From contig CAINLR010000196.1 of the NCBI GenBank assembly GCA_903850425.1, positions 1-54,079 on the forward strand: a stretch of 54,079 nt of DNA. Direction: 5' to 3'. The first letter of the stretch is position 1; each line of letters opens with the position of its first letter. The notes beneath the pieces are model-generated. The model saw only the letters and a list, made by a program, of their open reading frames with translations, made no database searches and was not told the DNA's origin. The position numbers and the translations under genes are program-made. Origin of the DNA: an uncultured Verrucomicrobia subdivision 3 bacterium. Its GTDB lineage: Bacteria; Verrucomicrobiota; Verrucomicrobiia; Limisphaerales; UBA11358. Positions 1,181 through 45,200 of this stretch are shown here, in pieces.

Positions 1181-2830
1181 TTAGAAATCTCGGAAGTCGC
1201 CTTCGAGAGGAATTTCAATTCGCGGAGCTGCCCCGACCGCTTGGATTGCGGCCGGACGAGAAACCCGACCTTGATTCCGCGGTTTGGCGAACTTCGCGCT
1301 GGACGGTGTGCCGGTGGCCACAACTCGGCTGTTATTGGGGCCGTCGCGCAGCGTGGCCTGGTTGCCCTGGTCGCCCTGGTCGCCCTGCATGTCCCCGACG
1401 AGTTGCATCAATTCGAGGACGGACTGCTTCATCAGCTCGGCCTGGGCATTCAGCTCCTGGGCCGCAGCGGCGCTTTCCTCGGCGGTCGCGGCATTGGATT
1501 GCGTGACCTTGTCCATCTGGCCGACCGCAGAGTTGATCTGGGTGATGCCCTGCGTTTGCTCCAGCGAAGCACTGGCCACTTCGGAGGCGAGTTCATCCAC
1601 CTGCCGGATCTTGGCCACAATGCCATTCAGAGCGGCGGCGACTTTCTGACTGATTTGAACGCCTTGGGCCGTTTTAAGAATGGCACCTTCGATCTTGGCC
1701 GTGGTTTCCTTCGCAGCGGTGGCGCTGCGTTGCGCGAGGCTGCGGACTTCATCGGCCACGACGGCAAAGCCCATGCCGGCTTCGCCCGCCCGGGCGGCTT
1801 CGACGGCGGCATTCAGCGCGAGGATATTGGTTTGAAAGGCAATCTCGTCAATGGTCTTGATGATTTTGGCGATGTCATCGGAAGAAATCTTGATGGCTTC
1901 CATGGCCTGATTCATGGCGTGCATGTCTTCGGAGCCTTTGTCGGCGGCCGCGCGGGCTTCCCGCGCCAGCTCGTTGGCTTTGGAGGCGTTCTCCGCATTG
2001 CGCTTGGTCATGCTGGCCATTTCTTCCAGCGAGGCTCCGGTCTCCTCAATGGACGCGGCCTGCTCGCCCGAACCCTGCGCCAACATCTGGCTGGCGCTGG
2101 ATACCTGGCCGGCCGCTTGATTGACCTGGGCGGAATTGCTGCTCAAATTGTGCACGAGATGGGTCAAGGCGCGACGAACGCGGGTGGAGTTGACCGCGAC
2201 CAGCACTATCGTCAACGCCGCGAAGCCAACACTGGCCGCGCCCAGCCAGAGCACATATTTACGGATATTTCCAAAGCTGGCGACCGTGAGGCTGGTGCGC
2301 TGGTTGGCCGTCGTGGTGCAATAGTCTTTGACCTGCCCCGCCGCGCCGTTGAGGGCGGTGACTTTGGCTGGAATTTCCTGATCGAGAATCTTCATTGCGC
2401 CAGCAAAGTCCTTATCCAACGTGGCGCGGATCTTGCCCATGGTCTGCACATAATCGTCGAGGCTGGTCGCCAACAGGGCCACGCGTTGATGCCCGTCGCC
2501 GGCGGGATAAAGCTGGGTGAGTTGGGCGAGAATTTCGGTGTTGTGCTGCTGGACGGCATCCGTCTCGGCGAGTTTGGCGGGCCGTTCCTTGTCCTGCGCG
2601 AACATGACTTCAAACGAGTGCAACCGGTAAACCGCCAGGTTTTCCTGGAGCAAAGCCAGCAGCCGAATGCTCGGCAAGCCTTCCTGTTCCAATCCGTGCG
2701 TCGCCTCGGTGCCGCGCTGGCAAACGCCCCACAGCACCACGCCTTGCACCAGGAGAAAAACGAGTAACAGGGCGAGGAGGATCTGGATCAGACGGAAACT
2801 GCTCTTGATGGAAGTGCTGGAATGATTCAT
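1181..2830 (-). CDS. Methyl-accepting chemotaxis protein (4HB-type sensor)
   Basis: A 549-residue chemoreceptor. TM1 is at about 14-34, followed by a mostly helical periplasmic region of about 150 residues that fits a four-helix-bundle sensor, then TM2 at about 186-206 and a long cytoplasmic coiled coil. The signalling hairpin tip ([20 protein letters not shown]) is canonical and would bind CheW and CheA. HAMP is weak: the region after TM2 passes quickly into the helical bundle. The C-terminus ends [10 protein letters not shown], whose last five residues (DFRDF) fit the x-aromatic-x-x-aromatic CheR docking tail. It follows a PstS-like gene and a porin gene on the same strand, so the periplasmic protein may present a ligand to it. 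A sigma-28-like site lies ahead of the first gene of this group. Confidence 0.9.
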
Positions 2831-2876: not shown

Positions 2877-3299
2877 TTATTTTATTTCAATCGTTTTGAC
2901 GCCGGTCAGGGCGGCATCCGCGGGCACAATGGCGATCGCGCCTTTGGTCGAGGCGACGAGCGCCACCAGCGCGGCGGCATCATCCGCCTTCTTGGGCTGC
3001 TGGCCGCGGCCGGAGAACGCGAGGCGTTGCCAGAAGGTCTTGAACGCACTGGTGTCCATGCCGCTGGCTTGCTGGATGGCCGCATCCGTTTTGTCGCCCA
3101 TGTAGGCGAGCGCGATGCTCTGGCCGCCGTCCCAGTATTTCGTGTTGCCGGTGTAGATGTCCTTCAAGGCCGCCGGCGTGAGGGTGGTGACCGACACGCT
3201 ATCGTTGGCGATGACGACGCCGTCGAGCGCCAGCGCCCGGAACGATCCAGTGCCGAGCAGGGCGCAGAGTAAACCGAGTTTCAAGAGGGATGATTTCAT
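2877..3299 (-). CDS. Small PstS-like periplasmic substrate-binding protein
   Basis: A 140-residue protein with a signal peptide (about 1-24, ending near ALA). The rest matches the start and hinge of phosphate-type binding proteins: [20 protein letters not shown], then [12 protein letters not shown], and a late GAIAIVP segment. It is about half the length of PstS and resembles the short PBP-like proteins often encoded next to porins and sensors and not next to ABC permeases. No pst transporter genes are nearby. It sits between a porin gene and a chemoreceptor gene on one strand, which favours a role as a ligand-binding adaptor for chemotaxis over transport. The ligand is unknown; phosphate or another oxyanion is an inference from the family. 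Confidence 0.75.
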
Positions 3300-3339: not shown

Positions 3340-4551
3340 TTAGAAACTAAAGGTGGTCTTCACCGCCAGCATGAACCAGCCGTTGTTATTGCTCTGGACG
3401 GGATTGTTGGCGTTGTCGCGCAACAGCCCGGTGCCTTCAAGGTAATGACCTTCCACTTTGAAAACCCACCAGTCTTTCAGGTCGAAGCGAAAGCACAAAG
3501 CGGCGTCGTTTTGTTTGGCGCTGGCATCCTTGAACATCGTGTAGTAAGTGCCCACTTCCAGCAGGTGATTGAAACGGTGGGAGGCGGCGACATACCAGGT
3601 TTCCGGATTATCGCCCGTGGTGCCGATGTTGTAATCGCCCATCGCGGGCAGATAATTATGACCTTCAAAATCGTAGGTGTAATACTCAGCTTGGAACGTC
3701 CAGCTTTTATAGATATATTCCGCCGAATACTGCTGCAGCGGGACGTTGCCCACGCTGTGAATATGGCCCGGCCCATATGGCGGGATGATGGTGGAGTTGT
3801 AACCCCAGTTGGCCATGTAGGCATACGCCGCGCCCAGCCGCAATCCGTCCACCGGCGTATTCCACCAGAGTTGTCCGCCAAAAATCGGCGCGGTATCAAT
3901 GCCGTTGAACTCGCCCACCGGCGCCGGCGGCAGTCCGTTTTCAGCATAACGCGCCACGCCACCATTGTCGGCCATGCTGACGTAGCCGGCATAAGCTTCG
4001 TAGGAAAGGCTGCCGGCCTTGTTCATCTGGATGCTGCCAAACAAATCCACACCGTCGAGTCCGGCGCTCCAATCGCGCCAACGCGCGTCATAGATGCCTT
4101 GCGGCAACAAGACAAACGTGCGGGCCAGATCAATGTCTTGAATCGAGTTGTAGATGCCGGAAGGGCGGCGAATGCGCCCGCCGCGCACGCCGATTTGATC
4201 GCTAAAAGTGTATTCGATCAAGGCGTAGTCCAGAAACGGATCGTATTGACCCACATTGCCGACATCGAACGCAAAGCCCTGCACGGCGATGCGCGTGCGC
4301 GGAAATGGATTGATGGAAACATTCGCGCCGATTTCCGTGAATTGAAACGAACCGTTCTTGGTGTCGTTGGCCAGATAATTGTAGTCGGTCGTTTTTAAAT
4401 AGCCCTGGCTGATGAAGGCGTGGAAGTCCAGCGGGGGCATGTTGGTGCCCAGAGGATGCACCTCATAGGCGGAGGCGCCGCAGGCGGCGGCTGCGCCCAG
4501 GGCGGCCGTTAACAGGGTTTTCTGTGTGTCAGTGCGTTTGATTCGTTTCAT
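3340..4551 (-). CDS. Outer-membrane porin-like beta-barrel protein
   Basis: A 403-residue protein with a signal peptide (hydrophobic stretch about 12-28, ending ASA). The body alternates aromatic and polar residues in repeated strand-turn units (for example QLWWNTPVDGLRLGAAYAYM) and ends in phenylalanine (TTFSF), as outer-membrane beta-barrels do. Most similar in general form to diderm porins of unknown substrate. It is the first gene of a minus-strand group with the PstS-like protein and the chemoreceptor. A sigma-28-like promoter lies about 50 bases ahead of its ATG. Together they suggest an uptake-and-detect unit: pore, periplasmic binder, receptor. Confidence 0.75.
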   Translation of the reverse strand: MKRIKRTDTQKTLLTAALGAAAACGASAYEVHPLGTNMPPLDFHAFISQGYLKTTDYNYLANDTKNGSFQFTEIGANVSINPFPRTRIAVQGFAFDVGNVGQYDPFLDYALIEYTFSDQIGVRGGRIRRPSGIYNSIQDIDLARTFVLLPQGIYDARWRDWSAGLDGVDLFGSIQMNKAGSLSYEAYAGYVSMADNGGVARYAENGLPPAPVGEFNGIDTAPIFGGQLWWNTPVDGLRLGAAYAYMANWGYNSTIIPPYGPGHIHSVGNVPLQQYSAEYIYKSWTFQAEYYTYDFEGHNYLPAMGDYNIGTTGDNPETWYVAASHRFNHLLEVGTYYTMFKDASAKQNDAALCFRFDLKDWWVFKVEGHYLEGTGLLRDNANNPVQSNNNGWFMLAVKTTFSF

Positions 4552-4670: not shown

Positions 4671-7600
4671 TCAAACATCCAGAAACCGGCGGATGGTTTC
4701 CAGCAGGTGATCCGTGGCGTAGGGCTTTTGAATGAAGGACTCGCCCAGGCGCAATTGAAAATCCCGGCCGGCAATGTCCGCGCTGTAGCCGCTGACATAA
4801 ATCACCTTGAGCTGCGGCTGTTCCGCCACCAGTTGCCGGGCCAGTTCCTGGCCATTCATGCCGCCCGGCATCACCAAGTCCGTCAGCAGCAGCGCCACCC
4901 GGCCGCGATGTTCAGGCCAGCGGGCCAAAGCCTCCATGCCATTGGCCGCTTCCACCACGCGGTAGCCTTGCCGTTCGAGAAAAATGCGCGTCGGCTTGCG
5001 CACCGCCAGTTCGTCCTCCACCAAGAAAATGGTCTCCGTGCCCCCGCGCGGCTTGGGTTTGACGTCGGTGGGGGCCGGTCCCACCGACGTCTCGCGGCTG
5101 GCCGGCAGAAAAATTTGGAAGGTCACGCCCTCGCCCGGGCGGTTGTCCAGCTCGATCCAGCCTTGGTGCTGTTTGACGATGCCAAAGACCGTGGCCAACC
5201 CCAGCCAGGTGCCTGACCCGGCTTCTTTGGTGGTGAAGAAGGGTTCAAATATTTGCGGCAACACTTCAGGCGGGATGCCGCTGCCCGTGTCACTGACACT
5301 TAAACTGACGTAACGGCCCGGCGGCACTTCCGCATTCACGCGCGCGGACCCCTCGGCCACGGTGACGGCCGTGGTGGCCACCTGCAAACGTCCGCCTTTG
5401 GGCATGGCGTCCCGCGCATTGACGGCCAGATTCATCAGCACCTGTTCGAGCATGCCGGGATCGGCGCGCGTCAGGAGCGGGGCCGCGTGGAGGTTGAGTT
5501 GCAACTGCACGTCCTCGCGAATCAGGCGCTGCAGCATCTTGCCCAGATTCATGATCAGTTCATTCAGATTCAACACCTGCGATTGCATCACCTGCCGGCG
5601 GCTGAACATCAGCAACTGCCGGGTGAGAGCGGCGGCGCGGTTGACATCGGTCACCATTTCCCGCAACCCATCGCGCACTTCCTCCGGCAGCGGCTCGACC
5701 CCGAGCAGCATTTCGGACTGCATGAGCAGCGCGGAGAGAATGTTGTTAAAGTCGTGCGCCACGCCCCCGGCCAGCCGGCCGACGGCTTCCATTTTCTGGG
5801 CCTGGCGGAATTGCTGCTCCAGTTGCAAACTGTCGGAAACGTCGCGTGAGTTGATGATGATCTGCTGTTCGCCGGCTTCGGTCTGGATGCTGGTGCCCAC
5901 GGCTTCAATGTGCCGCCAGAGGCCGTTTTGGTGGCGCAAACGCACGGTCAGCGTGATGGGCACGTTGAGCTGTGCCAATGATTGATGGAAGGCGGCCTGC
6001 GACCGGAGCCGGTCTTCCGGGTGGGCGAGGTCGAGCAGGCAGCGCCCGATGAACGCGGCGGCGGGATAGCCCAAAATCCGTTCGCCGGAGGCGCTTTGAT
6101 AGGTGACCACAGCCTGCGCGTCAATCACCGTGATGCTGTCCGAGGCGTGTTCAATGAGCGAACGAAAATACTCTTCGCGGCGTTGGAGTTCGATTTCTGC
6201 GCGCTTGCGATTGGTGATGTCGCGGATGATGGCCTGCAGAAATACTTTCCCGTCCAGTTCAATCCGGTTCAGGCTGACCTCAGTATCAAACGGGGTCTGA
6301 TCCAGCCGCGTGTGCCGCCATTCAAAGAATTGCGGCTGCCCGGCAAAGGCGCGGTCAATTTTTTCGCGCGCCAGTTCGCGCGAAAGCCCGCCATCCGGCT
6401 GCGCGACCGGTGAAAAATCAGCGGGGGAATGACCCATGATGTCCGCGCTCTGGCAGCCAAACATGACCAGCGTCTGCGGATTGCAGGAGAGAAAAACGTG
6501 CTCATCCATCATGCAGATGGCGTCATTGGATTTGTCAAACAAGGTGCGGAATTTCAGTTCGCTTTCGCGCATGGCGAATTCCGCCCGCTGGCGTTCGGTC
6601 AGGTCACTGGCCAGCCCCAGAAATCCCGTGATCTCCCGCTCCCGGTTGCGGATGGTCGTGACGACCAGTTGCACGGTCAACCGGGTGCCGTCTTTGCGGA
6701 CGAAGGTCCATTCGCGCACGTCATGTTGGGCTTGGCGGGCAGGCTCCACAAACGCGTCAAAGCCCGTGATCGTGCGCCCGGACGACAGCGACAGCTCCCG
6801 GCCCCGCGCCTCGATTTCTTCGCGCAGATGCCAGAGTTCCGGGGTGTGCCGGCCGATGACTTCCGCCGCGGAGTAACCGAGCATCCGCTCGGCGCCGGAA
6901 TTAAACAGCCGCACCAAACCCTTTATTTCCGTGGCGATGATGGCCACCTCCGTGGCCGAATTGAAAACATTCTGGATTTGCGCCGTGGCTTCCAACAACG
7001 CCGCGTCGCGCTGGCCGATGGTTTCCAGCATTTGATTGAAACCGCGCGCCAGACGGCCCAACTCGTCGTCGTTCTTGATGGGAACCCGGACGCTGTAATC
7101 GGCGTTTTGCGTCACCTGGGCGCTGGTCTCCACCAGCTCAAACAAGGGCTTCAAGAAATAGCGCTGCATGCCCATCAGCAGCACCGTCGCCATGGCAATC
7201 AACACCAGGGCAACCACGACCATCATGATGAAGTCTTGCGGCACCCGCGCATAAAATGGCGGGATAGCCTCCTGCAGATAGAGGTAGCCAATCACGCGCT
7301 CGCCATGCCGGACCACCTGCCAGATGGAAACCGAGAAGACATCGAATTGGGCGCCCGCCGGGCGCGGGGCGGTGATGGCCGCATCATCGTCATGGCGGAA
7401 CTCGGCAAACCGGTTGGTTCTGGCATCCAATAGGACCGCCAGCTCGAGGTTCCTCGCCTTTCCCAAACTCACTAAATAGGAGCGCGCGTTTTCCTTATCA
7501 AGAAATTCCAGCGGCGCTTGTAACATTTCGCTCAGCACGGCGGCGTCTTCCACCAACTGCTTTTCCGTCGCCGGGCGAAAGGTCTTCAGATCGTAGGCCA

Positions 7601-7691
7601 ACATACCTCCGATCACCAATAACATCGCCAGTCCGCTGGCGATGAGAATCAGCCGGATCAATCGTTGCCGCAATGAAAGCTGCCAGGCCAT
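4671..7691 (-). CDS. Hybrid sensor histidine kinase (CHASE8-like, HAMP, 3 PAS, HisKA, HATPase, REC)
   Basis: A 1006-residue inner-membrane kinase. TM1 is at about 14-33, a CHASE8-like periplasmic domain at 35-150, TM2 at 157-177 and HAMP at about 178-230. PAS domains lie at about 240-365, 375-495 and 505-625. HisKA carries the phospho-acceptor in AGGVAHDFNN, an HATPase follows (N box LMNLAVNARDAM) and a receiver ends the protein (FLVEDE, phospho-acceptor Asp in LLLTDLVMP, Lys in QKPY). An oddity: the ATP-lid G2 box reads GSGTWLGLATV, with Trp (TGG) where the other kinases in this window have Gly. It starts one base after the stop of the YfiR-type gene, so it is translated with it and probably responds to that periplasmic protein. 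No DNA-binding output domain is present; the output partner is unknown. Confidence 0.9.
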   Translation of the reverse strand: MAWQLSLRQRLIRLILIASGLAMLLVIGGMLAYDLKTFRPATEKQLVEDAAVLSEMLQAPLEFLDKENARSYLVSLGKARNLELAVLLDARTNRFAEFRHDDDAAITAPRPAGAQFDVFSVSIWQVVRHGERVIGYLYLQEAIPPFYARVPQDFIMMVVVALVLIAMATVLLMGMQRYFLKPLFELVETSAQVTQNADYSVRVPIKNDDELGRLARGFNQMLETIGQRDAALLEATAQIQNVFNSATEVAIIATEIKGLVRLFNSGAERMLGYSAAEVIGRHTPELWHLREEIEARGRELSLSSGRTITGFDAFVEPARQAQHDVREWTFVRKDGTRLTVQLVVTTIRNREREITGFLGLASDLTERQRAEFAMRESELKFRTLFDKSNDAICMMDEHVFLSCNPQTLVMFGCQSADIMGHSPADFSPVAQPDGGLSRELAREKIDRAFAGQPQFFEWRHTRLDQTPFDTEVSLNRIELDGKVFLQAIIRDITNRKRAEIELQRREEYFRSLIEHASDSITVIDAQAVVTYQSASGERILGYPAAAFIGRCLLDLAHPEDRLRSQAAFHQSLAQLNVPITLTVRLRHQNGLWRHIEAVGTSIQTEAGEQQIIINSRDVSDSLQLEQQFRQAQKMEAVGRLAGGVAHDFNNILSALLMQSEMLLGVEPLPEEVRDGLREMVTDVNRAAALTRQLLMFSRRQVMQSQVLNLNELIMNLGKMLQRLIREDVQLQLNLHAAPLLTRADPGMLEQVLMNLAVNARDAMPKGGRLQVATTAVTVAEGSARVNAEVPPGRYVSLSVSDTGSGIPPEVLPQIFEPFFTTKEAGSGTWLGLATVFGIVKQHQGWIELDNRPGEGVTFQIFLPASRETSVGPAPTDVKPKPRGGTETIFLVEDELAVRKPTRIFLERQGYRVVEAANGMEALARWPEHRGRVALLLTDLVMPGGMNGQELARQLVAEQPQLKVIYVSGYSADIAGRDFQLRLGESFIQKPYATDHLLETIRRFLDV

Positions 7692-7692
7692 A

Positions 7693-8307
7693 TTAACGGG
7701 CCTCCGTCTGCGGCATAATAACCTTGTTCGCGAGTGCCAACATTTGTGGTGTGAATTTTACCCCTGCCTGCTGCGTCGCCGGCAAGCTCACGTCAAAACG
7801 GACCCGTCCCGCCACCGTCTTGAGTTCCAGGATTCCGCCCCGCTCAAGGGTATGCCCCGATTCGCCCACCGTGACGATCGGCTTGTCTTTCAAGACCGCC
7901 AGCCAATTTTCCTCGCGGCTTTTTTCCGCCGCGCTGATGAACACCAAGTGGCAGCCGTCGGCCGCTTCGGCGCTGGCCAGATGCCGCACCTGGATCGTCC
8001 GCGCGCCGACCTGCTGGGCCGCCGTCTTCGCCAGCACCTCGCCGAAGGGATTCTCGCCCAGCACGCCAATGATGATCGGATCGTCCTTGCCGGCAAAGGC
8101 GTTGGACGGCCACTCCGTATAGCTTGTGAACGCGGTAAGCAAACCCGCCTTGATACTGTATTCCGGCGCGATGGCCGGCTGGGCTTCTAAAATCTGGAAT
8201 GGCAACGCTGCCCCGCCGAGCAACAACACCAGCCAAAAGGCCAGGCAACGAATGGCCTGACGCCGGCCGGGAAGTTTGATGCTTTGCCAGTTCATGGAAG
8301 TAAACAT
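7693..8307 (-). CDS. YfiR-type periplasmic protein (DUF4154)
   Basis: A 204-residue protein with an N-terminal hydrophobic signal (about 22-38). The mature part has the family hallmarks: an early KAGLLTAFTSYTEWP segment, a central GVLGENPFGEVL strand-helix, and a late GGILELKTVAGRVRFDVSL stretch followed by a conserved helix. YfiR of Pseudomonas is a periplasmic, redox-responsive repressor of the membrane diguanylate cyclase YfiN; here the partner is likely the kinase whose start lies one base past the stop. The ATG at 8307 shares one base with the stop of the TonB receptor upstream (TGATG), so receptor, periplasmic protein and kinase are tightly coupled. A second YfiR-kinase pair is at 41611-45591. 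Confidence 0.85.
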   Translation of the reverse strand: MFTSMNWQSIKLPGRRQAIRCLAFWLVLLLGGAALPFQILEAQPAIAPEYSIKAGLLTAFTSYTEWPSNAFAGKDDPIIIGVLGENPFGEVLAKTAAQQVGARTIQVRHLASAEAADGCHLVFISAAEKSREENWLAVLKDKPIVTVGESGHTLERGGILELKTVAGRVRFDVSLPATQQAGVKFTPQMLALANKVIMPQTEAR

Positions 8308-10337
8308 CAAAATCTCCAGGTGACTTTGGCATAGACGCCGCGCGGGATTTCAGCCGTCTGGTTCACCAGCGAGGCGTGATATTCCGCATGTTGATCGTGC
8401 AAAAGGTTCTGGCCCACGAGCGCCACCTCGAGGTTCCGGGTCGGCCGCCAAGCCAGTTGCAGATCCAAGTCAACGTAAGCCGGCACATGATAATAGGGGA
8501 TGTTGTCGAGATAGCGCAGCGCGCCCGTCAATTCCACTTCGCGACCGAGTTTGACGCCGGAAGTCAGCGCCACGGTCTGGCGCGGCGAGGTCAGCGAATC
8601 ACCGGCAAATTCGATTGGGTCGGGCAAATACGAATGCAACTGAGTATGCCGGACGCTGTAACTGACGGTGGCAAACCAAGCATCGCAAGGTCGCCAGGTC
8701 AACGCCATTTCCCCGCCATAGGAATCCCCCTCCGTGCCGTTGGCCGTCACCACCGGAATTACGACTGATGGAGCCGGCGTCCCCTGGCCATAGGGCGTGC
8801 CATAGGTGGCCATGATCAAATTCTTGTATTGGTAATAATAGCTGGCCACGTCCACCGTAAGGGACTTGGCGGCCTGCCAGCGCCAGCCCAGTTCCCACGA
8901 CTGCAACTCCTCCGGGTTCACGTCTTGATTGCCACGCCACCGCAAGACGGCAGGCAAGTTTGGATCGAAGGTGCCGGGCGGAAAAACGCGCAGGTCTATC
9001 TGCGCCTGCTGCTCCACTTCCGAGGGACTGCGCAGCGCCTGCGACCAGGCCGCCCAGAGGGTGTGCCCTTCGGCCGGGTGCCAGGTGAGGCGAGCATTTG
9101 GCTGCGGCAGGAATCCGCCAACCGAATGACCTTCCAGCTTGATCCCGCCGGTCAAGAAGAGCCGGTCCCGAACGAGCTCAATTTCATCCTGCACAAAACC
9201 CGAACCCAGCCACACGACTTCCTGCGCCGGATCGAACGCCGCCCAGCGTGGCCGCGTGTGGAAGTCCACCATCCGACCATCCAAGCCCCAATCCACCACT
9301 TGCCGCCGCCACCCGGTCCAGGTGTGATGCATCTGCACATCCGCCGTATGCACATCGAAATCCACGATGGATTCCTCGCGCTGTGAAAAATCGTAGTAGG
9401 CTTGGAGCTGCAGGGTGGAATCCGGGGTCAGCTCCGTCTGCCAGCGGCCCAGCATTTGCCCGCCCAAGACCTGCGCCGCACTATTATTGGTCACAATGTA
9501 ATTAGGCGACAAGAGATCCGGCAGTTGCGTGGTGTCATTATTTTCGCCCCAATGAATATCTCCTTTCAGCGTCCACTGCGTATTGGCCCGCGGATAACCG
9601 TCCGCCCGAAAGCCACCCTGGCCCGTGCGCGTGGCATCATTGGCCTCGCCGCCGCCCGGTTTCGGCAGGGACAGATCATAATCATACGTTCCATAAACCC
9701 GGACGTAGGTGTTGGTGCCGGCCTGCCAGCCGTAGCGGGCGCCGGCCAGAGCGGCTTTCGTCGTGCCGCCACCGCCGTAAATCAGGCCGCCCTGCGTGTC
9801 GCGCGCCGACTTGGTGATAATATTGATCACGCCATTCATCGCGTTGGCGCCCCAGATCGAACCGCCCGGGCCGAGCACCACTTCGATTTGGTCCAGATCC
9901 GGCAGGAAATAATTCTGCTGATCCCAAAAGACGCCGCTGTAAATCGGCGAATAAACGGAAACGCCGTCCATCATCACCAGCAGCTTGTTCGCATATTGCG
10001 ACTGGAATCCGCGGGCCCCGATGGCCCAGGTGCTGCCATTGATCTGCGCTACGTTGAGGCCCGGCACCGTGCGCAACGCCTCGGGAATGGAGGTCGCGCC
10101 AGAGCGCGCGATGTCCTCGCTGGTAACGACCCGCACGGCGGCGGCGGCGTTTTTCAGCGGCTCGGCCCGCTGGCTCACGCTGACGATTTTGATTTGCGAC
10201 AGTTCCTCGAGAGAAAGATTGGCCAGAATGGGGGAGGCGTGCAGCGCATCATCCACCGCCGCCGCCGACGAAACGGTCTGAAACAGCATCGCCGGGACCA
10301 GCGCTGCCGCCAGTATTTTGGAACCATGTGAATTCAT
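8307..10337 (-). CDS. TonB-dependent outer-membrane receptor (copy 1)
   Basis: A 676-residue receptor with a signal peptide (about 1-27). The plug domain begins after a conserved LSLEELSQIKIVSVSQR segment and contains the typical AAAAVRVVTSEDI, SIPEALRTVPGLNVAQING and IEVVLGPGGSIWGANAMNGV motifs. The barrel ends ...YAKVTWRF with a terminal Phe. Receptors with this LSLEEL...SVS start commonly lie beside YfiR-type proteins and membrane sensors. Closely related to the receptor just upstream (10519-12546), most strongly in the plug, indicating tandem duplication. Its stop overlaps the YfiR start by one base. Substrate unknown; no siderophore, vitamin or glycan genes are adjacent. Confidence 0.9.
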   Translation of the reverse strand: MNSHGSKILAAALVPAMLFQTVSSAAAVDDALHASPILANLSLEELSQIKIVSVSQRAEPLKNAAAAVRVVTSEDIARSGATSIPEALRTVPGLNVAQINGSTWAIGARGFQSQYANKLLVMMDGVSVYSPIYSGVFWDQQNYFLPDLDQIEVVLGPGGSIWGANAMNGVINIITKSARDTQGGLIYGGGGTTKAALAGARYGWQAGTNTYVRVYGTYDYDLSLPKPGGGEANDATRTGQGGFRADGYPRANTQWTLKGDIHWGENNDTTQLPDLLSPNYIVTNNSAAQVLGGQMLGRWQTELTPDSTLQLQAYYDFSQREESIVDFDVHTADVQMHHTWTGWRRQVVDWGLDGRMVDFHTRPRWAAFDPAQEVVWLGSGFVQDEIELVRDRLFLTGGIKLEGHSVGGFLPQPNARLTWHPAEGHTLWAAWSQALRSPSEVEQQAQIDLRVFPPGTFDPNLPAVLRWRGNQDVNPEELQSWELGWRWQAAKSLTVDVASYYYQYKNLIMATYGTPYGQGTPAPSVVIPVVTANGTEGDSYGGEMALTWRPCDAWFATVSYSVRHTQLHSYLPDPIEFAGDSLTSPRQTVALTSGVKLGREVELTGALRYLDNIPYYHVPAYVDLDLQLAWRPTRNLEVALVGQNLLHDQHAEYHASLVNQTAEIPRGVYAKVTWRF

Positions 10338-10518
10338 GATCGCATTCTGTTTGTTGGCTCAAAACCATGCGTCCCCGCCGCTCGAAGGGCGGCAGCGGCT
10401 CGCATAATTGCGCCGAATTCTCGTTTGGTAATGTGGCATCAGCAATCTTTTTCCTGTTAAAAATGACTCGCGCGTGGGTTTGCCAATAAGTGGTTCATGG
10501 ATGGCAGGAGGTTTTGGG

Positions 10519-12546
10519 TCAGAATTTATAAGTCACCTTGGCATAAACGCCCCGGGGGATTTCGGCGGTCTGCCCCGCGAGGCTCGATGTATATTCGAGG
10601 TGCTGGTCGTGGAGCAGGTTCTGCCCGACCAGCGAAAATTGCCACCGCTCGTTTGGCCGCCAAGCGAGTTGCGCATCCAACTCAACATAGGCGGGCGTAT
10701 GGCTGTAGGGAATGTTGTCGAGGTAGCGCAGCGCACCAGACAACTCCACTGCGCGGCCGAGTTTGAGGCTGGAGTTGAGCGCCACGGTTTGGCGCGGAGC
10801 ATCCAACGCGTGGCCGGCATAGCCTTGGTCCGGCTGCACATAGGAATGCAGCATGGTGTGCCTCACGCTGTAGCTGGCGCTGACCAGCCAACGGTCCACA
10901 GGCCGCCAAGTCAGCGCCATCTCGCCGCCGTAAGCATCGCCCTCCGCACCGTTGACATACGTTAGTGGAACCACCACGGCCTTCAAAGCCGGATCGTATC
11001 CCGGCTTGCCGGCGCTGGTGGTGCTGATGAGGTCGTCGTAATGATAGTAATAGCCGGCCACGTCGAGGGTCAGGGATTGACGCGCCTGCCAGCGCCAGCC
11101 GATCTCCCACGCCTGCAATTTTTCCGCCTCCAAGCTGGCATTACCCGCGAGCCGCACCACCGTGGGAAACGGGTTTGGCGGCATGGGCCGGAGCACACTC
11201 ACATCAATCTGGGAATTTAGTTCGGTGGCCTGCGGGCTGCGCAAGGCTCGCGACCAGGCCACCCAAAAGGTATGCCGTTCGGCGGGCTGCCACGTCAGCC
11301 GGGCATTCGGCTGCGGCATGAACCCGACGTCCGAATGTTCCTCCAGCTTGATGCCGCCGGTCAATTTCAGTGCATCGGGCACCAGGCTGATTTCATCCTG
11401 CACAAAACCGGAACCGAGCCATTCGGTCGCCTGCATCGGATCATACGTTGCCCAGCCCGGCTCCGAATCCCGATACACCATCCGTCCGTCCACACCCCAG
11501 TCTATCACCTGTCGCCGCCAGCCAGACCAAGTGTGATGCAACTGCATATCCGCCGTCTGCACCGCCGCGCTGCCGGCCACCTCGTTCCGCTTCGAAAAGT
11601 CATAATAGCCTTGTATCTGAAGGGTGGAATCGGGATTCATCTCCGTCTGCCAATGTCCGAGCAGTTGCCCGCCAAGGCTGCGCGTCATGGCGGTGTTCGT
11701 GAAGACATAACTGGGTGGTCGCGTCAGGTCTGGTTGCAGTAATAAATCATCGTTCGCCGCCCAACGCACATCGCCCTTCACGGTCCACTCCGAATTACCG
11801 CGCGGATAGCCGTCCAACCGGAAGCCGCCCTGACCACTGCTCGTAGCGTCCGGCGCATCCCCACCGCCGATCCTGACGGTCGGATTGTCATAATTGTAAA
11901 TTCCATAGACGCGGGCATAGACATTGGTGTCCGCGAGCCAGCCGTAACGCGCCCCGGCCATGACCGCCTTCTCATTGCCACCTCCGGCGTAAACCATCCC
12001 GCCCTGGGTGTCGCGGGCCGATTTGGTGACAACATTAACCACGCCATTGACCGCGTTTGCGCCCCAAATGGAGCCACCCGGACCCAGCACCACTTCGATC
12101 TGTTCCAAATCCGGCAGGAAATAATTCTGCTGATCCCAAAACACGCCGCTGAAAACTGGCGAGTAAACCGAGACGCCATCCACCATCACGAGCAGCTTGT
12201 TGGAAAACTGGCTTTGAAAACCGCGCGCGCCGATGGCCCAGGCGCTGCCGTTGATCTGCGCCACGTTGAGGCCCGGCACATTGCGGAGGGCTTCGGGAAT
12301 GGAGGTCGCGCCGGAGCGGGCAATGTCTTCGCTGGTGACGACATGCACGGCGGCGGCGGCATTCGCCAGTGGCTGGACGCGCTGACTGACGCTGACGATT
12401 TTGATTTGCGACAGCTCCTCGAGCGACAGATTGGCCAGAATGGGGGAATCCCTCGGGGCATCATCCGCCGTCAGCGCCGCATCCGCCGGCAGGCAAAACA
12501 AGGCCGGCAGGCTGGCCGCCAGGCGGATGGACACAGGCAAATTCAT
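10519..12546 (-). CDS. TonB-dependent outer-membrane receptor (copy 2)
   Basis: A 675-residue paralogue of the neighbouring receptor: signal peptide about 1-23, the same LSLEELSQIKIVSVSQR start, the same plug motifs (IEVVLGPGGSIWGANAVNGV) and a terminal Phe (YAKVTYKF). Differences concentrate in extracellular loops of the barrel, so the two probably bind related but different ligands. It is first in the minus-strand series receptor-receptor-YfiR-kinase; a 181-base gap with no clear terminator separates it from copy 1. A strong sigma-28-like promoter lies about 200 bases upstream, which would place uptake or detection of the ligand under the motility programme. Confidence 0.9.
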   Translation of the reverse strand: MNLPVSIRLAASLPALFCLPADAALTADDAPRDSPILANLSLEELSQIKIVSVSQRVQPLANAAAAVHVVTSEDIARSGATSIPEALRNVPGLNVAQINGSAWAIGARGFQSQFSNKLLVMVDGVSVYSPVFSGVFWDQQNYFLPDLEQIEVVLGPGGSIWGANAVNGVVNVVTKSARDTQGGMVYAGGGNEKAVMAGARYGWLADTNVYARVYGIYNYDNPTVRIGGGDAPDATSSGQGGFRLDGYPRGNSEWTVKGDVRWAANDDLLLQPDLTRPPSYVFTNTAMTRSLGGQLLGHWQTEMNPDSTLQIQGYYDFSKRNEVAGSAAVQTADMQLHHTWSGWRRQVIDWGVDGRMVYRDSEPGWATYDPMQATEWLGSGFVQDEISLVPDALKLTGGIKLEEHSDVGFMPQPNARLTWQPAERHTFWVAWSRALRSPQATELNSQIDVSVLRPMPPNPFPTVVRLAGNASLEAEKLQAWEIGWRWQARQSLTLDVAGYYYHYDDLISTTSAGKPGYDPALKAVVVPLTYVNGAEGDAYGGEMALTWRPVDRWLVSASYSVRHTMLHSYVQPDQGYAGHALDAPRQTVALNSSLKLGRAVELSGALRYLDNIPYSHTPAYVELDAQLAWRPNERWQFSLVGQNLLHDQHLEYTSSLAGQTAEIPRGVYAKVTYKF

Positions 12547-15374: not shown

Positions 15375-16751
15375 ATGAACCTGTTAAAACCACTCTCATT
15401 ATTGACCATTCTGTGGCTGGCACTCGTTGCTCCGGCATCCGCCCCGGCCGAAAGCCAAACCAGCACCAATGCTTTCACCCGCTGGGCCACGCAGGATTAC
15501 CTGCTGGGCGACTGGGGCGGCGCCCGCAGCCGCCTGGCGCGGCACGGCGTGGACTTGGAATTTTTCTACGCCGGCTCCGTGCCGGACAATCTCAGCGGCG
15601 GCCGGCGCACCGGGGCGATTTACCAGGGCCTTGGGCTGGCAACGCTGGACCTCGATTCGCAAAAGCTGCTGGATTACGCCGGGGGGAAATTCCATGTCTC
15701 CGGCCTCTGGCTGCATGGCCGCGAAGGTTTTTCCGCCAATTTTCCCGGGGACTACAACCGCGTCAATCTCCTCGACCTCGACCACACCTTCCGCCTGGGC
15801 GAACTCTGGTATCAGCAGAAATTCTTCGCAGACCAACTGGCCATCAAGCTGGGTGAACTGGCCATTGATTCGGATTTCCTCGTGCCGGAATACTACACCT
15901 GCGCCGGCCAGTTTAGTCTATTGAACCAGACTTTCTTCTATCCCTCGCTGCCCTTCAACGTCTTCGATCCGCCCGGATTTCCGGCCACGGGCCATGGTCT
16001 TTCGACAATGCCGCTGGCGACCCCCGGTGCCGTCATCCGTTGGTCACCCACCGAAAACTTTTACGCGCAGGCCGGGATTTACAGCGGCACGCCCGACCGG
16101 ACTGATTCCGGCACGCGTTTCAGCGTCAGCCAGCAGGACGGCTTGCTGAACTACTTTGAAATCGCCTGGCGGCACAACCCCGGCACCAATAATCCCGGCC
16201 TCGGCGGCACTTACAAACTCGGCGCGTATTATCACACCAGCGATTTCACGGACCTCTACGACGGGGTTTTTTACGCCGCCGGCATCAACCCGGCACCCCG
16301 CCAGCATCAAGGAAACTGCGCGGCGTATCTGCTCGCGGAGCAACAGCTCTATCTTAAAAACGGCAAGGCAGATCCAGCTTTGCAAGGGTTGGTCGGCTTC
16401 TTCCGGTTGCTCGCCGCGCCGTCAGATCGCAATCTCACGCAGCTCGAAGTGGACGGCGGACTCGTTTATCGCGGCCTGATTCCCACGCGGCCGTGGGACT
16501 CGCTCGCGCTGGCCGGTTCGTATCTTGAATTTAGCGACGACCTCCGCCGCGCACAGGAGGACATCAACTCATTCGCGCCCGGCAGCTTCACGCCGCTGGA
16601 TTACGAAGGCGTCATTGAATTGAGCTACAAAATCCAAGCCACCGCGTGGTGGACGATTCAGCCCAGCGTGCAACACGTCTTTCATCCGAGCGGTTCTTCC
16701 GCGACGCCCGACGCCACCGTGTTCATCCTGCAAACCACGCTGCGGTTTTAA
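15375..16751 (+). CDS. OprB-family carbohydrate-selective porin
   Basis: A 458-residue outer-membrane protein with a signal peptide (about 1-25, ending APA/ESQ). The N-terminus of the mature part has the family motif LLGDWGGARSRLARHGVDLE, followed by a LSGGRRTGAIYQGLG segment typical of OprB (PF04966). The barrel ends in Phe (TTLRF). OprB proteins pass glucose and other sugars. The gene starts one base after the kinase stop, forming a two-gene unit, and its 3' end overlaps the convergent cheR by four bases. Confidence 0.88.
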   Translation: MNLLKPLSLLTILWLALVAPASAPAESQTSTNAFTRWATQDYLLGDWGGARSRLARHGVDLEFFYAGSVPDNLSGGRRTGAIYQGLGLATLDLDSQKLLDYAGGKFHVSGLWLHGREGFSANFPGDYNRVNLLDLDHTFRLGELWYQQKFFADQLAIKLGELAIDSDFLVPEYYTCAGQFSLLNQTFFYPSLPFNVFDPPGFPATGHGLSTMPLATPGAVIRWSPTENFYAQAGIYSGTPDRTDSGTRFSVSQQDGLLNYFEIAWRHNPGTNNPGLGGTYKLGAYYHTSDFTDLYDGVFYAAGINPAPRQHQGNCAAYLLAEQQLYLKNGKADPALQGLVGFFRLLAAPSDRNLTQLEVDGGLVYRGLIPTRPWDSLALAGSYLEFSDDLRRAQEDINSFAPGSFTPLDYEGVIELSYKIQATAWWTIQPSVQHVFHPSGSSATPDATVFILQTTLRF

Positions 16752-17638
16752 GCCGCGGGCTTGAGATAGATCGCCGGCCGCACGAGTTTCAAGCTGTGCT
16801 TCACGCCGCTCAAACTTTCCGAATGTCCCACCAGCAGATGGCCGCCCGGCACCAGCTTGGCGGTCAGTCGCTGCACCAGCGTCTCCTGCGTCGGACGGTC
16901 GAAGTAAATCATCACATTGCGACACAGGATCAAATCGAAGGACCACGCGAACGGATACGCGCCTTCCAGCAAATTTAGATGGTGAAAATGGACACGGCGG
17001 CGCAGTTCGTCTTTCACGCGGAAATGACCGGCCCATTTTTTTTCGCCCTTTTGAAAATGCCGCCGCAGGGCTTCGGGACCAACGCTCGTCAGCCGTTCCT
17101 GTTCATAAATCCCCTGCGTGGCCACTTCCAGCACGCGCGTCGAAATGTCCGTGGCCTCGATCTGCCAGCGGCCGGATTCGGCGGGCGCAAAATTCTCGGC
17201 GAAATGAATCGCCAGTGAATACGGCTCTTCGCCGGTGGAGGAGGCCGAACTCCAGATGCGGAACGGTTCCTTGCGCCCTTTCACCGCGTTCCAAGTCGGA
17301 ATGATCACGTCCCGGATGAACTCGAAATGTTTGATCTCCCGGAAAAAATGCGTGTGGTTGGTCGAGATGCGGTCAATCAGGAATTGCAGTTCTTCCGCGC
17401 CCGCCGGCGAGCGCATGAGTTCGCAATACTCCTGGTAGCTGTTCAGGTTGAGATGGCGCAGCCGTTTCGCCAGTCGGGAGGCCACCAGCACCCGTTTGTC
17501 GGGACCGAGATGAATCCGGCTGCGTTCATAAATCAGCTGGCATAAGAACTCATAGTCCGCGTCGCCCAGCGTGGTGGTGAGCCAGCCCGGCTCGGTGAGT
17601 TTGGCGGCGGCCGGCGGCCTGGCGGCAGTCCGGCTCAT
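16748..17638 (-). CDS. cheR: CheR-type chemoreceptor methyltransferase
   Basis: A 296-residue SAM-dependent methyltransferase that adds methyl groups to receptor glutamates. The N-terminal helical domain ends in ISTNHTHFFRE, the family signature. The SAM-binding loop is WSSASSTGEEPYSLA, followed by ATDIS and LCRNVMIYF motifs. A beta-subdomain that would dock receptor tails lies at roughly 200-235. Both chemoreceptors in this window end in a matching tail (DFRDF, DFKDF). Its ATG overlaps the stop of the upstream hybrid kinase (ATGA), so it is expressed with that kinase; no cheA, cheB or cheY of the usual kind is in the window. Confidence 0.92.
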   Translation of the reverse strand: MSRTAARPPAAAKLTEPGWLTTTLGDADYEFLCQLIYERSRIHLGPDKRVLVASRLAKRLRHLNLNSYQEYCELMRSPAGAEELQFLIDRISTNHTHFFREIKHFEFIRDVIIPTWNAVKGRKEPFRIWSSASSTGEEPYSLAIHFAENFAPAESGRWQIEATDISTRVLEVATQGIYEQERLTSVGPEALRRHFQKGEKKWAGHFRVKDELRRRVHFHHLNLLEGAYPFAWSFDLILCRNVMIYFDRPTQETLVQRLTAKLVPGGHLLVGHSESLSGVKHSLKLVRPAIYLKPAA

Positions 17639-40603: not shown

Positions 40604-40657
40604 GCGGTGCAACTCGCCCTCAAGCGAGGCCCGATTCAACCGATAGAGAAATGTTTT

Positions 40658-41610: not shown

Positions 41611-42210
41611 ATGAGCCTTTTCCCGCCAGCCCACCCCCGACCACGCGTCCGTGCCATGCTCGGCGGCATCATCTGCGCCTGGCTGTGTTGGGCCGGGGCG
41701 GCAGGGGGCGCGGATCTACTTACCACCAAACCGCACGATGTCATGGCCTGCTATCTCGGCCAATTCCCCGCCTATGTGGAATGGCCAACCAATACTTCGG
41801 TGGCGGCGGCGACACCCTGGCGGATCGGCATTCTGGGCAGCGATCCGTTTGGTGAAGTGCTGGAGAAAGTTGTGCAAGACCGCAAAGTGGCCGGCCGCAG
41901 CTTTGAAATCTGCCGCGCGGCGAAGTTGCCCGACCTGCCGCCGTGTGAAATTATTTTCATCGCGGGGAAGGATGCGAATGAGATCAAAAAGATTTTGCAG
42001 CAGCTCGGTTCGCAACCGGTGCTGACGGTGAGTGACTATGACCATTTTCTGGCGCTCGGCGGCATCATACAATTGCAGACGCGCGACACGGTGCGGATGC
42101 TGATCAACCTCGACGCCGCCCGGTCGGCGAAATTAAAAATTCGCGGAACGCTGCTGGAAGTGGCCAGCGAGGCCACCGAAAACGGCGGGCGGAGAATCCT
42201 TAGAAAATAG
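41611..42210 (+). CDS. YfiR-type periplasmic protein (DUF4154), second copy
   Basis: A 199-residue protein with a signal segment at about 15-33. The family marks are YLGQFPAYVEWP, IGILGSDPFGEVLEKVVQD, then FLALGGIIQLQTRDTVRMLI with the late LDAARSAKLKIRGTLLEVA helix. It differs clearly from the copy at 7693. Its ATG precedes a multi-PAS kinase by three bases past its stop, repeating the YfiR-kinase arrangement, but here no TonB receptor is adjacent. Confidence 0.82.
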   Translation: MSLFPPAHPRPRVRAMLGGIICAWLCWAGAAGGADLLTTKPHDVMACYLGQFPAYVEWPTNTSVAAATPWRIGILGSDPFGEVLEKVVQDRKVAGRSFEICRAAKLPDLPPCEIIFIAGKDANEIKKILQQLGSQPVLTVSDYDHFLALGGIIQLQTRDTVRMLINLDAARSAKLKIRGTLLEVASEATENGGRRILRK

Positions 42211-42213
42211 CGC

Positions 42214-45200
42214 ATGTTCAAAATCGCTGGCATCCAAAAGCGCGCCTTGACCGCCATTCTCGGCACGGCGCTGCTGGCATTTGTAGCGGGCGGCATCGGC
42301 ACCGCGCTGTATCAGGATCGCTCGCTCAATGCCCGGGTGAAACAAACCCTCGAACCCTACGCTGAAGTGATCACCGTCAGCACCAAAGTGGCGGTTGATT
42401 TCGCCTACCAGGACCGGGCGCAGGAAATTCTGGACGAACTCCAAGCCAACCACCAGATTCTGCGGGCCGATATCATTCTGTCCAATGGCCGCACGCTGGC
42501 GAGTTATCCAACCAACAACCCGGTGCTGGAACCGTTCCGGTGGAACCGGGCCAACGACACCTATCCGGATCCGACCGGCGAATTTTCCGAGCTCGTCCAA
42601 ACCCTGCCGGTGGAGGGCGGCCGCCCGGCACACTTGGTCATCCGCATGAGCCTGGCCCAGCTGCGCCAGAGCAATTGGAAAATTCAGGCGCAACTGGCGG
42701 CGGCCGTGGCCGGCGTGCTGCTGGTGACTGCGCTGGCGCAATTTTTCCTGCTGCGGCGCTCGGTGCTAACCCCACTGGCGCAGCTCGCCGCCGTGACCGA
42801 GTCCGTCCGCCGGCAGGGCGATTACTCGCTCCGGCTGCCCGTGCAGGGCGCGGATGAATTCGGCCGGCTTGGCAAGAACTTTAATGCCCTGCTGACCATG
42901 GTGGAATACCGGGAGGCCGCGCTCCGGCGGGTCACCAATTTTCAAAGCGCCATCCTGAATGATGCCGCCTACGCCATCATTTCCACCACCACCGAGGGCC
43001 GCATCACCAGCTTCAATCCCGCCGCCGAAAGCATGCTGGGCTACCAGGCGGAAGAACTCATCGGCCACGCCACGCCCATTCTCTTTCACGAAGCCGAGGA
43101 ATTGTCCACCCGCGCCGGGCAGTTTTCGGAGCAGTTGGGCGAGCCGGTGGAAGCCGGTTTCGCGACGCTGATCGCCCGCTCGCGACACCATTTGCCCAAT
43201 GAACATGAATGGACTTTCGTCCGCAAAGATGGCAGCCGATTGGCGGTGCTGCTCTCCGTGACGGCCTTGCAGGATGACGCGGGGGCCATCAGCGGCTTCC
43301 TCGGCATGGCCGTGGACATCACCGAGCGGCGGCAGGCGGAAGCAGCCTTGCGTCAACGCGACACGAAATACCGCCAGTTGTTCGAGAACATGCTCACCGG
43401 TTTCGCCTTGAGCGAGATCATCTGCGACGCCGCAGGCCGACCGGTGGACTATCGGTTTCTGGAAATCAACCCGGCGTTCGAGCGGTTGACCGGCCGGGCG
43501 GCGGACGCACTGATCGGCAAAACCGTTTTGCAGGTGCTGCCCCGGACGGAAAAAAATTGGATCGAAACTTTTGGCCAGGTGGCGCTGACGGGCGTGCCGG
43601 CCGCGTTTGAAAACTATGCCGGGGAGCTGGACCGTTATTTCGACACGTGGACCTTCTCGCCCCAGCGCGGCCAGTTCGCCGTGGTTTATTCCGACATCAC
43701 CATCCGCAAAAAGTTTGAACTCGAATTGCGCCACAATAATTCGCTGCTCGAAGCCACGTTGCAGGCCACCGCCGATGGCATCCTCGTAGTGGCGGCCGAG
43801 GGCACCGTCACCAGCTACAACCGGCAGTTGGTGGAAATCTGGCGCGTGCCGCAGGAAATTCTGAACACCCGCCAGGCCGGCGCGCTGACCCAGTATCTCG
43901 TGCGTCAATTAACCGATCCCGCCACCGCCGCCCAGCGCCTCATCCCGTTTCACGACACGTCCAAGGCGGACACGTTTGAAATTCTGAGCTTCGCGGACGG
44001 CCGCATCTTTGAGCGCTATTCCCGGCCGCAGCTCGTGGCGGAGAAAGTCGTGGGCCGCGTCTGGAGTTTCCGCGATGTCACCGCCGCCCGGCAGGCCGAA
44101 GTGGCCGTGCGCGAGAGCGAATATAAATTCAAGACGCTGTTCGAGACCGCCAACGACACGATTTTCCTGATGAACCACCAGGTGTTTTTGGAATGCAATT
44201 ATCGGAGTGAAGAGATGTTTGGCTGTCCGCGTGCGCAGATTATCGGGGAATCCCCCATTCGATTTTCCCCCGAACGGCAGGCCGATGGCCGGCGTTCCAA
44301 GGAGAAGGCGGCGGAGAAAATCGGCGCCGCGCTCGCCGGCACGCCGCAATTTTTTGAATGGATCCACTGCCGCGCCGATGGCACGCCATTCAACGCCGAA
44401 GTCAGCCTGAACCGCCTCGAACTCCACGGCCAGATCGTCATCCAGGCCATCGTGCGCGACATCACCGCGCGCAAGCAGGCCGAGGCCGCGCGGCGCGAGG
44501 CGGAGGAACTTTACCGCACGCTGGTCAACACGTCGCCGGACGGCATCTGCGTTTTGGATACCGAAGGCCGCATTACATTTTCCTCCCCGCGAGATGTCGA
44601 ACTGTTCCGGGTGCCCAACGCGGCCGCCAAACTGGGCCATCACGGTCTGGAATTCATCGCCACCAGCGACCGGGCCCGGGCGGAGCAGGCGATTCGCGAC
44701 GCCCTCCACGGGAACATCCATCCCGACCAGCGCCTGCTCATGCTGCGCGGCGACGGCACGAAGTTCGTCGCGGAATTGAACGGCACTCCGCTGTGCGATG
44801 CCCACGGCGAGGCGCGCGGCGTGATGTTCGTCATCCGCGATGTGACGGAACGCCAGCGACAGGAGGACGAAATAAAAAATAAAAATGCGGAACTCGAACG
44901 TTTCACTTACACCGTCTCGCACGATCTCAAAAGCCCGCTCATCACCATCAAGGGTTTCGCCGGCGCGTTGCTGGCCGATCTGGCCGCCGGCAAAACCCAC
45001 CGTCTGGCCGACGATCTCAAGCGCATTATTCTCGCCTCGGACAAGATGGCTGAATTGCTCAACGGGCTGCTGGAACTCTCGCGGATTGGCCGGATCGTCA
45101 ACCCGCCCATCGCGGTTTCGATGGTCAAAATCACCGCCGAAGTGAGCGAACTGCTGGCGGGCTCGATCGAACAGCGCCAGGCCCGGGTCACGGTGTAACC

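Follow-up and report, generated by a model that had tools for sequence, protein, structure and literature searches.

A stretch of 54,079 nucleotides (nt) from an uncultured Verrucomicrobia subdivision 3 bacterium (contig CAINLR010000196.1 of assembly GCA_903850425.1), referred to here as the window, carries on its minus strand two TonB-dependent receptor genes, the gene of a YfiR-like periplasmic protein and the gene of a hybrid sensor kinase, transcribed in the order receptor 1, receptor 2, YfiR, hybrid kinase. We read this string as a trans-envelope sensory operon, in which a signal would run from receptor to YfiR, from YfiR to the CHASE8 domain of the kinase and through HAMP to the kinase output, and we give this reading a probability of about 0.6. 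Such a path had been put forward earlier from the DNA alone (the original prediction), and its two steps have fared differently. The action of YfiR on the periplasmic domain of the kinase has good indirect support, because of the common ancestry of the sensor half with YfiN, the adjacency of the genes, the co-divergence of their products, the kept hydrophobic residues at putative interface sites and the existence of YfiR-kinase fusions, while the step from receptor to YfiR draws on gene order, with weak co-divergence.

TonB receptors are usually seen as importers, and those well known for signalling do so with an N-terminal STN domain and an anti-sigma factor. In the mechanism that we propose, the outer-membrane receptor or receptors would bind or import a ligand and periplasmic YfiR would be the coupling subunit, binding the extracytoplasmic PAS-like CHASE8 domain and holding the kinase in one state. 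Occupation of the receptor would change the availability or conformation of YfiR, and this change would be relayed via HAMP to the HisKA, HATPase and receiver (REC) output. The receptor might control YfiR in either of two ways: it might hold the protein, like YfiB, or admit a ligand that YfiR binds. By analogy with Pseudomonas aeruginosa, where YfiR is a repressor, we infer that YfiR contacts CHASE8 here as well and, less firmly, from the conserved gene order, that the receptor controls YfiR.

Organisation of the operon

The junctions downstream of receptor 2 are tight (Table 1). The TGA of receptor 2 (8309-8307) and the ATG of YfiR (8307-8305) have one A in common, and base 7692 stands alone between the TAA of YfiR (7695-7693) and the ATG of the kinase (7691-7689); by eye, GGAG can be seen just 5' of the YfiR ATG and GGAGG 5' of the kinase ATG. 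The original prediction was right about the single base between YfiR and kinase. Its base-sharing receptor pair stands for receptor 2 and YfiR but not for the pair, since receptor 1 is separated from receptor 2 by 181 nt, and the interval 7693-12546, which it gave for the receptor/YfiR/kinase set, is too short, as the kinase (4671-7691) falls outside. The family as a whole tends to such tight junctions: measured as gaps between longest open reading frames (ORFs), receptor and YfiR overlap or stand no more than 30 nt apart at 87 of 107 junctions, and YfiR and sensor at 110 of 119.

The two receptors are 67% identical to each other. Both consist of a Plug domain, starting at residue 61, and a TonB-dependent barrel, and a Pfam search gave no STN match in either, in agreement with the expectation that they lack an N-terminal signalling domain. 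The best NCBIfam match of both is NF053590 (TOL_0244 receptor), over positions 2-604 of 604, at 556 bits for receptor 2 and 538.5 bits for receptor 1, both under its cut-off of 645. An LSLEEL-like segment N-terminal to the plug was considered as a docking site for YfiR and dropped, as it marks the receptor family and not a YfiR link: the strict pattern occurs in 66/130 YfiR-linked and 13/29 unlinked receptors (and in two of nine further unlinked receptors at contig ends), and the unlinked receptors, read individually, indicate that the family carries the segment with or without YfiR.

Conservation of the gene string across genomes

Linkage between the three kinds of gene extends well beyond the window. 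In its own genome (6.9 Mb), which has five YfiR genes in all, each of the four Plug matches has a YfiR gene no more than 4 kb away and each of the three CHASE8 matches stands directly behind one; the probability of finding three separate receptor loci, all of them no more than 3 kb from one of five YfiR genes, in a genome of this size is ~8e-8. Across 40 close genomes, own included, 27/40 CHASE8 matches are found within 1.5 kb of YfiR, where 0.05 would be expected by chance, and all 27 are on the same strand and downstream. The corresponding figure for Plug is 26/60 within 6 kb (21 of the 26 on the same strand), a count that pairs Plug with DUF4154 matches alone and understates linkage at receptors cut by the contig end (L047, L059). 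Linked Plug matches make up 26/39 of those at 65 bits or more and 0/21 of those below, which points to the involvement of a single receptor family. At several loci YfiR genes lying under longer antisense ORFs escaped greedy ORF calling, and linkage counts were taken from domain-based calls or match positions.

A scan of named genomes used the receptor alignment as its sole anchor, as the YfiR alignment was too little conserved to serve as a search key. It therefore does not presuppose YfiR, and it covered the best 80 of at least 585 receptor relatives, which is not a random sample. YfiR was found within 3.5 kb of the receptor in 57 of these 80 loci, always on the same strand; it lies downstream of the receptor in 52 and upstream of the anchoring receptor in five (L087, L102, L113, L125, L140). 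Distances came from listed match ends for 36 loci and from a rounded default of 8001-9950 for nearly all others, with an error of ~100 nt. The full string of receptor, YfiR and sensor is present in 47 of the same best 80 loci, which by their titles belong to Verrucomicrobia, Acidobacteria, Deltaproteobacteria including Geobacter-type bins, Alpha-, Beta- and Gammaproteobacteria, Deferribacteres, Nitrospira, Nitrospinaceae, an anammox bacterium and a Bacteroidota bin. Of 288 genomes sampled from the window's phylum 34 have YfiR, and the 49 distinct YfiRs of this sample have a receptor directly upstream in 34 cases and a CHASE8-type sensor directly downstream in 44; for the 33 YfiRs of the own-plus-relatives set these numbers are 20 and, for a sensor downstream, 29. 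The locus sets overlap (L080/L055, L131/L050, L120/L142).

The original prediction had proposed a neighbourhood survey as its check, and the gene order recurs in distant groups, so it is not found only here. Bacterial operons often contain short overlaps, and the string could in principle be the product of chance or of ordinary operon packing with no functional link; a linkage that recurs in such distant groups, far above chance, makes this explanation highly improbable.

The kinase and its sensor half

Pfam domains of the kinase are CHASE8 (1.9e-11), HAMP, PAS domains, HisKA, HATPase_c and Response_reg, with hydrophobic segments flanking CHASE8 on both sides. HisKA, HATPase_c and a receiver in one chain make it a hybrid histidine kinase, and these domains bear out the earlier description of a CHASE8-like, PAS-rich hybrid kinase behind YfiR. 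Amino acids (aa) 6-227 match NF053592 (HK_near_YfiR_like) over its whole length (model 1-223 of 223), at 149.2-154 bits against a cut-off of 194, and aa 5-227 match positions 2-223 of the DgcN/YfiN model at 8.1e-21; the full-protein cut-off of the latter model (325) is missed, at 74.3 bits, because the GGDEF half is absent. The DgcN/YfiN model matches every one of the 58 aligned sensor halves, and so does the WalK model, more weakly (aa 121-225 of the window kinase, 8.9e-10). Judged by sequence, the input half of the kinase and YfiN have common ancestry.

The predicted structure of the sensor has a long helix on either side of a PAS-like domain. Its best Foldseek matches are models of WalK and of two chemoreceptors, a LapD-type output domain and extracytoplasmic PAS domains, e.g., that of CitA, and the solved structures that match it by sequence gave HAMP-region and weak WalK matches alone.

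The YfiR protein and its putative interface

The window YfiR matches PF13689 at 127.2 bits (cut-off 24.9) and exceeds the cut-off of NF053591 (YfiR_like_TOL0243), with 141.1 against 125 bits, while NF053586, the model for the YfiR of sequestration systems, is not reached (48.8 against 85 bits). An AlphaFold2 model (pLDDT 88.6) was compared with Foldseek, and the 15 best matches were entries of P. aeruginosa YfiR or of the YfiR-YfiB complex (E 1.4e-8 to 5.8e-7).

In P. aeruginosa a hydrophobic C-terminal patch of YfiR (positions 160, 162 and 183) has been proposed to bind YfiN at the AAVVF stretch of its PAS domain (PMC3375315). Both sides of this putative contact have possible counterparts here. 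After removal of duplicates, 142 YfiR ORFs gave 139 distinct ones: position 160 is I, V, L or M in 133/139, position 162 is F in 95/139 and another large hydrophobic residue in 43/139 (hydrophobic in 138/139), and position 183 is L, V or I in 116/139. On the side of the sensor, the window kinase has APLEF where the AAVVF-like stretch falls and the family consensus is A-A-[LV]-x-F, as located by pattern match and not by alignment with YfiN; by the same pattern match the stretch ends in F in 108 of 119 sensors.

Exchangeable outputs and fused proteins

Outputs other than a plain kinase were found by Pfam behind receptor-YfiR pairs. CHASE8-HAMP is joined to a methyl-accepting chemotaxis protein (MCP) output in L146:7314-8903 (+) and L151:5081-6760 (-), which suggests chemosensory use of a TonB receptor, and to GGDEF-EAL in L074 and L105; L132 has a kinase with GGDEF-EAL. 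The CHASE8-HAMP-MCP genes of L146 and L151 are near kinase-receiver genes.

YfiR and a histidine kinase are joined in one chain in L166:1-1881 (-) and L170:7011-9752 (+), with the layout hydrophobic segment, YfiR, long coiled-looking stretch (by eye), hydrophobic segment, HisKA and HATPase. Neither fusion has a CHASE8 match, and that of L166 ends at the contig edge. A further frame from the window's own genome (L044:8164-9699, contig C74; 511 aa) combines an ECF-type sigma factor (Sigma70 r2 and r4) with a C-terminal YfiR (aa 352-497) and has hydrophobic stretches at 206-246 between the two parts, and this sigma factor may carry its own periplasmic YfiR sensor.

Co-divergence of the parts

Pairwise distances were compared for 78 receptor/YfiR/kinase triplets (of 85 with a kinase core, seven were dropped for short domains); the resulting figures include the relatedness of the organisms, and the kinase core serves as an internal control. 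YfiR distances follow those of the sensor half with a Spearman coefficient of 0.62, or 0.54 as a partial coefficient allowing for receptor and kinase core. For YfiR and the catalytic core, which belongs to the same polypeptide as the sensor, the values are 0.19 and 0.005, for YfiR and receptor 0.44 and 0.26, and for receptor and sensor 0.39 and 0.14. The core distances are more than noise, since they follow those of the receptor at 0.35. When the more distant half of the pairs is taken by itself, YfiR-sensor stays at 0.54 and YfiR-core drops to 0.03. With other distances, Pearson r was 0.58 for YfiR-sensor, 0.15 for YfiR-core and 0.28 for YfiR-receptor, values reached by 0, 3 and 1 shuffles per 2000, respectively. 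On these distances YfiR and the CHASE8-HAMP half evolve as one unit, because YfiR follows the sensor half and hardly the core, also in distant pairs; the outputs are swapped behind this unit and the receptor link is looser.

Contrary evidence and alternative explanations

Several observations weigh against the sensory reading. Among the best 80 named receptors, 23 have no YfiR within 3.5 kb; the sequence behind the receptor is shorter than 200 nt in three of these (L079, L122, L127) and shorter than 3.5 kb in three more (L083, L106, L117), leaving 17 loci without YfiR despite room, including L063, the nearest relative (66% identical). A sensor but no same-strand receptor directly upstream accompanies 12/49 YfiRs of the phylum sample and 12/33 of the own-plus-relatives set; a receptor is a neighbour in a different position or orientation in L176, L180 and L181 of the former, and a divergent receptor is next door in L045, L048, L049, L052 and L053 of the latter. 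Twelve of the 142 YfiR ORFs have a receptor but no detected sensor and six have neither, and the window itself holds a second YfiR-kinase pair that has no receptor. As for the interface, several residues of P. aeruginosa YfiR tied to YfiN or YfiB binding (Phe151, Glu163, Ile169 and Gln187; PMC4655355) are mostly replaced: Phe151 corresponds to F in 3/139 and Ile169 to I in 5/139, Glu163 is E in 66/139 and D in the window, and Gln187 is replaced by V in 82/139. The putative binding region 159-185 is barely less variable than the remainder (mean entropy 2.01, against 2.08, 2.16 and 2.71 elsewhere). Finally, in the more distant half of the pairs the coefficients fall to 0.11 for YfiR-receptor and -0.12 for receptor-sensor, and after correction YfiR follows the barrel of the receptor (0.16) but not its plug (0.00), a result that lends no support to contact between plug and YfiR.

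The many YfiR-sensor pairs without a receptor directly upstream, the window's second pair among them, also favour an arrangement in which the receptor is a target and not an input, i.e., the kinase would regulate the receptor operon, YfiR would sense something else, e.g., redox or envelope state, and the receptor would be regulated cargo. Against this, the receptor precedes YfiR with all three kinds of output (kinase, GGDEF-EAL and MCP), and direct control of receptor expression would not be expected of an MCP. The two cysteine pairs of the P. aeruginosa protein are rare here, occurring in 1/139 YfiRs (Cys145-Cys152) and 24/139 (Cys71-Cys110); at positions 71, 110, 145 and 152 the window YfiR has G, C, L and E, so it lacks the pattern of four cysteines in two pairs and has one cysteine in the mature protein. 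We consider a regulated cargo receptor unlikely. The equivalent of Cys110 (aa 119 in the window) is kept in 103/139 YfiRs although its partner Cys71 has a counterpart in 27/139, which makes it a lone conserved cysteine of the periplasm.

A different division of labour would have the receptor only import, with YfiR, which has half a periplasmic-binding-protein fold, binding the ligand and altering its grip on CHASE8, so that receptor and YfiR would not touch. After the YfiR entries, the Foldseek matches of the YfiR model are the substrate-binding proteins 3lft, 3lkv and 8wgl (2.2e-4 to 2.6e-4), and a resemblance of YfiR to 3LFT and 3LKV has been reported (PMC4655355). Five ExbD matches, with a weak TonB_C match under its cut-off near one of them, make transport possible. 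The weak co-divergence of receptor and YfiR, tied more to barrel than plug, leans slightly the same way, although the plug hardly varies and is so conserved that its missing signal says little. P. aeruginosa YfiR, however, binds YfiB directly (PMC4655355). We regard import followed by sensing as a possibility to be taken seriously, at odds of clearly less than even. The plug as the contact site of YfiR was set aside as unsupported, having tracked YfiR no better than the barrel did, with the reservation that it is too conserved to judge.

Relation to known systems

Earlier work on such systems is considerable. Malone et al. described in 2012 (PMC3375315) modules of YfiR and PAS-HAMP whose outputs are kinases, GGDEF-EAL or MCPs, and the legend of their Figure S5 lists Opitutus terrae among the divergent homologues aligned; the main text of that paper makes no mention of TonB. 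The original prediction had set the kinase apart from the classical diguanylate cyclase partner of YfiR, and a kinase is indeed present, although this is not new given the outputs just cited. NCBIfam holds three consecutive models, NF053590, NF053591 and NF053592, for the same three kinds of gene as in the window, and NF053592 takes its name (sensor histidine kinase, YfiR-like protein-associated) from its place near YfiR. Compared with this trio, the window YfiR passes whereas the receptors and kinase fall below the cut-offs, and we treat these as distant relatives without calling them members. The YfiR module with varied outputs and all three gene families are thus already catalogued, and the window is a new member.

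With YfiBNR of P. aeruginosa the window operon shares the YfiR fold and the CHASE8/PAS-HAMP input half and, judged by pattern, may share an AAVVF-like stretch. It differs in having TonB receptors upstream and a kinase in place of GGDEF, and in lacking Cys145-Cys152, the disulfide that stabilises P. aeruginosa YfiR; a Pfam search of the locus, which did not extend to the rest of the genome, found no YfiB gene among the neighbours of the operon. In signalling of the FecA-FecR-FecI type, control runs from a TonB-dependent receptor across both membranes to a cytoplasmic output, and receptors of the FecA type use an N-terminal STN domain. The window receptors, in contrast, are without STN, and Pfam identified neither FecR nor a sigma factor among their neighbours.

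The family of the window receptors is named after TOL_0244 of Thalassolituus oleivorans, the expression of which was sevenfold up on the n-C28 alkane compared with Tween 80 (PMC6304351). The same paper, our only source for OmpS of Alcanivorax dieselolei, describes that protein as 40.3% similar to TOL_0244, needed for alkane detection and triggering the expression of a chemotaxis response; TOL_0243 goes unmentioned there. In the open literature searched, judged mostly from listings, we found no account of a receptor as the input of a YfiR system.

Other genes in the window

Downstream of the kinase, on the same strand, lie genes for a probable barrel, a PstS-like binding protein and an MCP (Table 1), and whether they are fixed parts of the operon is uncertain. 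No barrel or binding-protein genes were labelled in the gene strings of relatives, which is a weak test, as it used single-sequence models and an ORF caller that missed the window's own copies. By eye, the barrel-like protein (3340-4551, minus strand) has an N-terminus similar to that of L063:11809-13029 (-); L063 is the nearest receptor relative and is itself without YfiR nearby.

The chemosensory genes of the window comprise two MCPs, a CheR and a CheW (1181-2830, 16748-17638, 38966-40603, 40607-41167), and an MCP-CheW pair stands upstream of the second YfiR-kinase pair. The second CHASE8 kinase (42214-45198) has an in-frame stop, after which the same frame continues with an ATPase match; it may be a pseudogene, a split gene or a sequence error.

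Table 1. Features of the receptor-YfiR-kinase operon and of other genes in the window.
Feature	Position	Strand	Evidence and remarks
TonB-dependent receptor 1 (TBDR-1), 675 aa, TOL_0244-like	10519..12546	-	Plug 3.6e-20, barrel 2.8e-37
TonB-dependent receptor 2 (TBDR-2), 676 aa, immediately 5' of YfiR	8307..10337	-	Plug 3.6e-19, barrel 7.6e-32
Base common to receptor-2 TGA (last A) and YfiR ATG (first A)	8307	-	Sequence
YfiR-like periplasmic protein, 204 aa, hydrophobic signal-like stretch aa 17-35	7693..8307	-	PF13689 6.7e-37
Hybrid sensor kinase, 1006 aa, CHASE8-HAMP-PAS domains-HisKA-HATPase-REC	4671..7691	-	Pfam
CHASE8 periplasmic sensor domain within kinase	7275..7571	-	PF17152, 49.3 bits
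Probable outer-membrane barrel (by eye)	3340..4551	-	No Pfam match; 119 nt past kinase stop; system membership uncertain
Short PstS-like binding protein	2877..3299	-	PF12849 26.2 bits, just under cut-off 27; membership uncertain
Methyl-accepting chemotaxis protein	1181..2830	-	PF00015 1.4e-44; membership uncertain
Second YfiR-like gene, no adjoining receptor	41611..42210	+	PF13689 9e-34; NF053591 120.8 bits, cut-off 125
Second CHASE8-HAMP-PAS kinase, 3 nt past second YfiR	42214..45198	+	Pfam; stop codon between HisKA and ATPase domain

Implications

From the gene linkage, the fused proteins and a co-divergence that runs as if along a chain, we predict that YfiR and CHASE8 touch first and that the outputs behind them are exchangeable. 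Beyond the window, we would tentatively suggest, at odds a little short of even, that TonB receptors without STN serve at the outer membrane as input to a modular system that occurs across many phyla, made up of receptor, YfiR and a CHASE8-HAMP sensor with exchangeable outputs (hybrid kinase, GGDEF-EAL or MCP). If true, receptors would have a way to signal that differs from STN/FecR, and cells with an MCP output would be able to swim by what an outer-membrane receptor binds. If YfiR couples receptors to kinases, cyclases and chemoreceptors, many proteins annotated as importers, among the at least 585 relatives of the window receptors, may be sensors.

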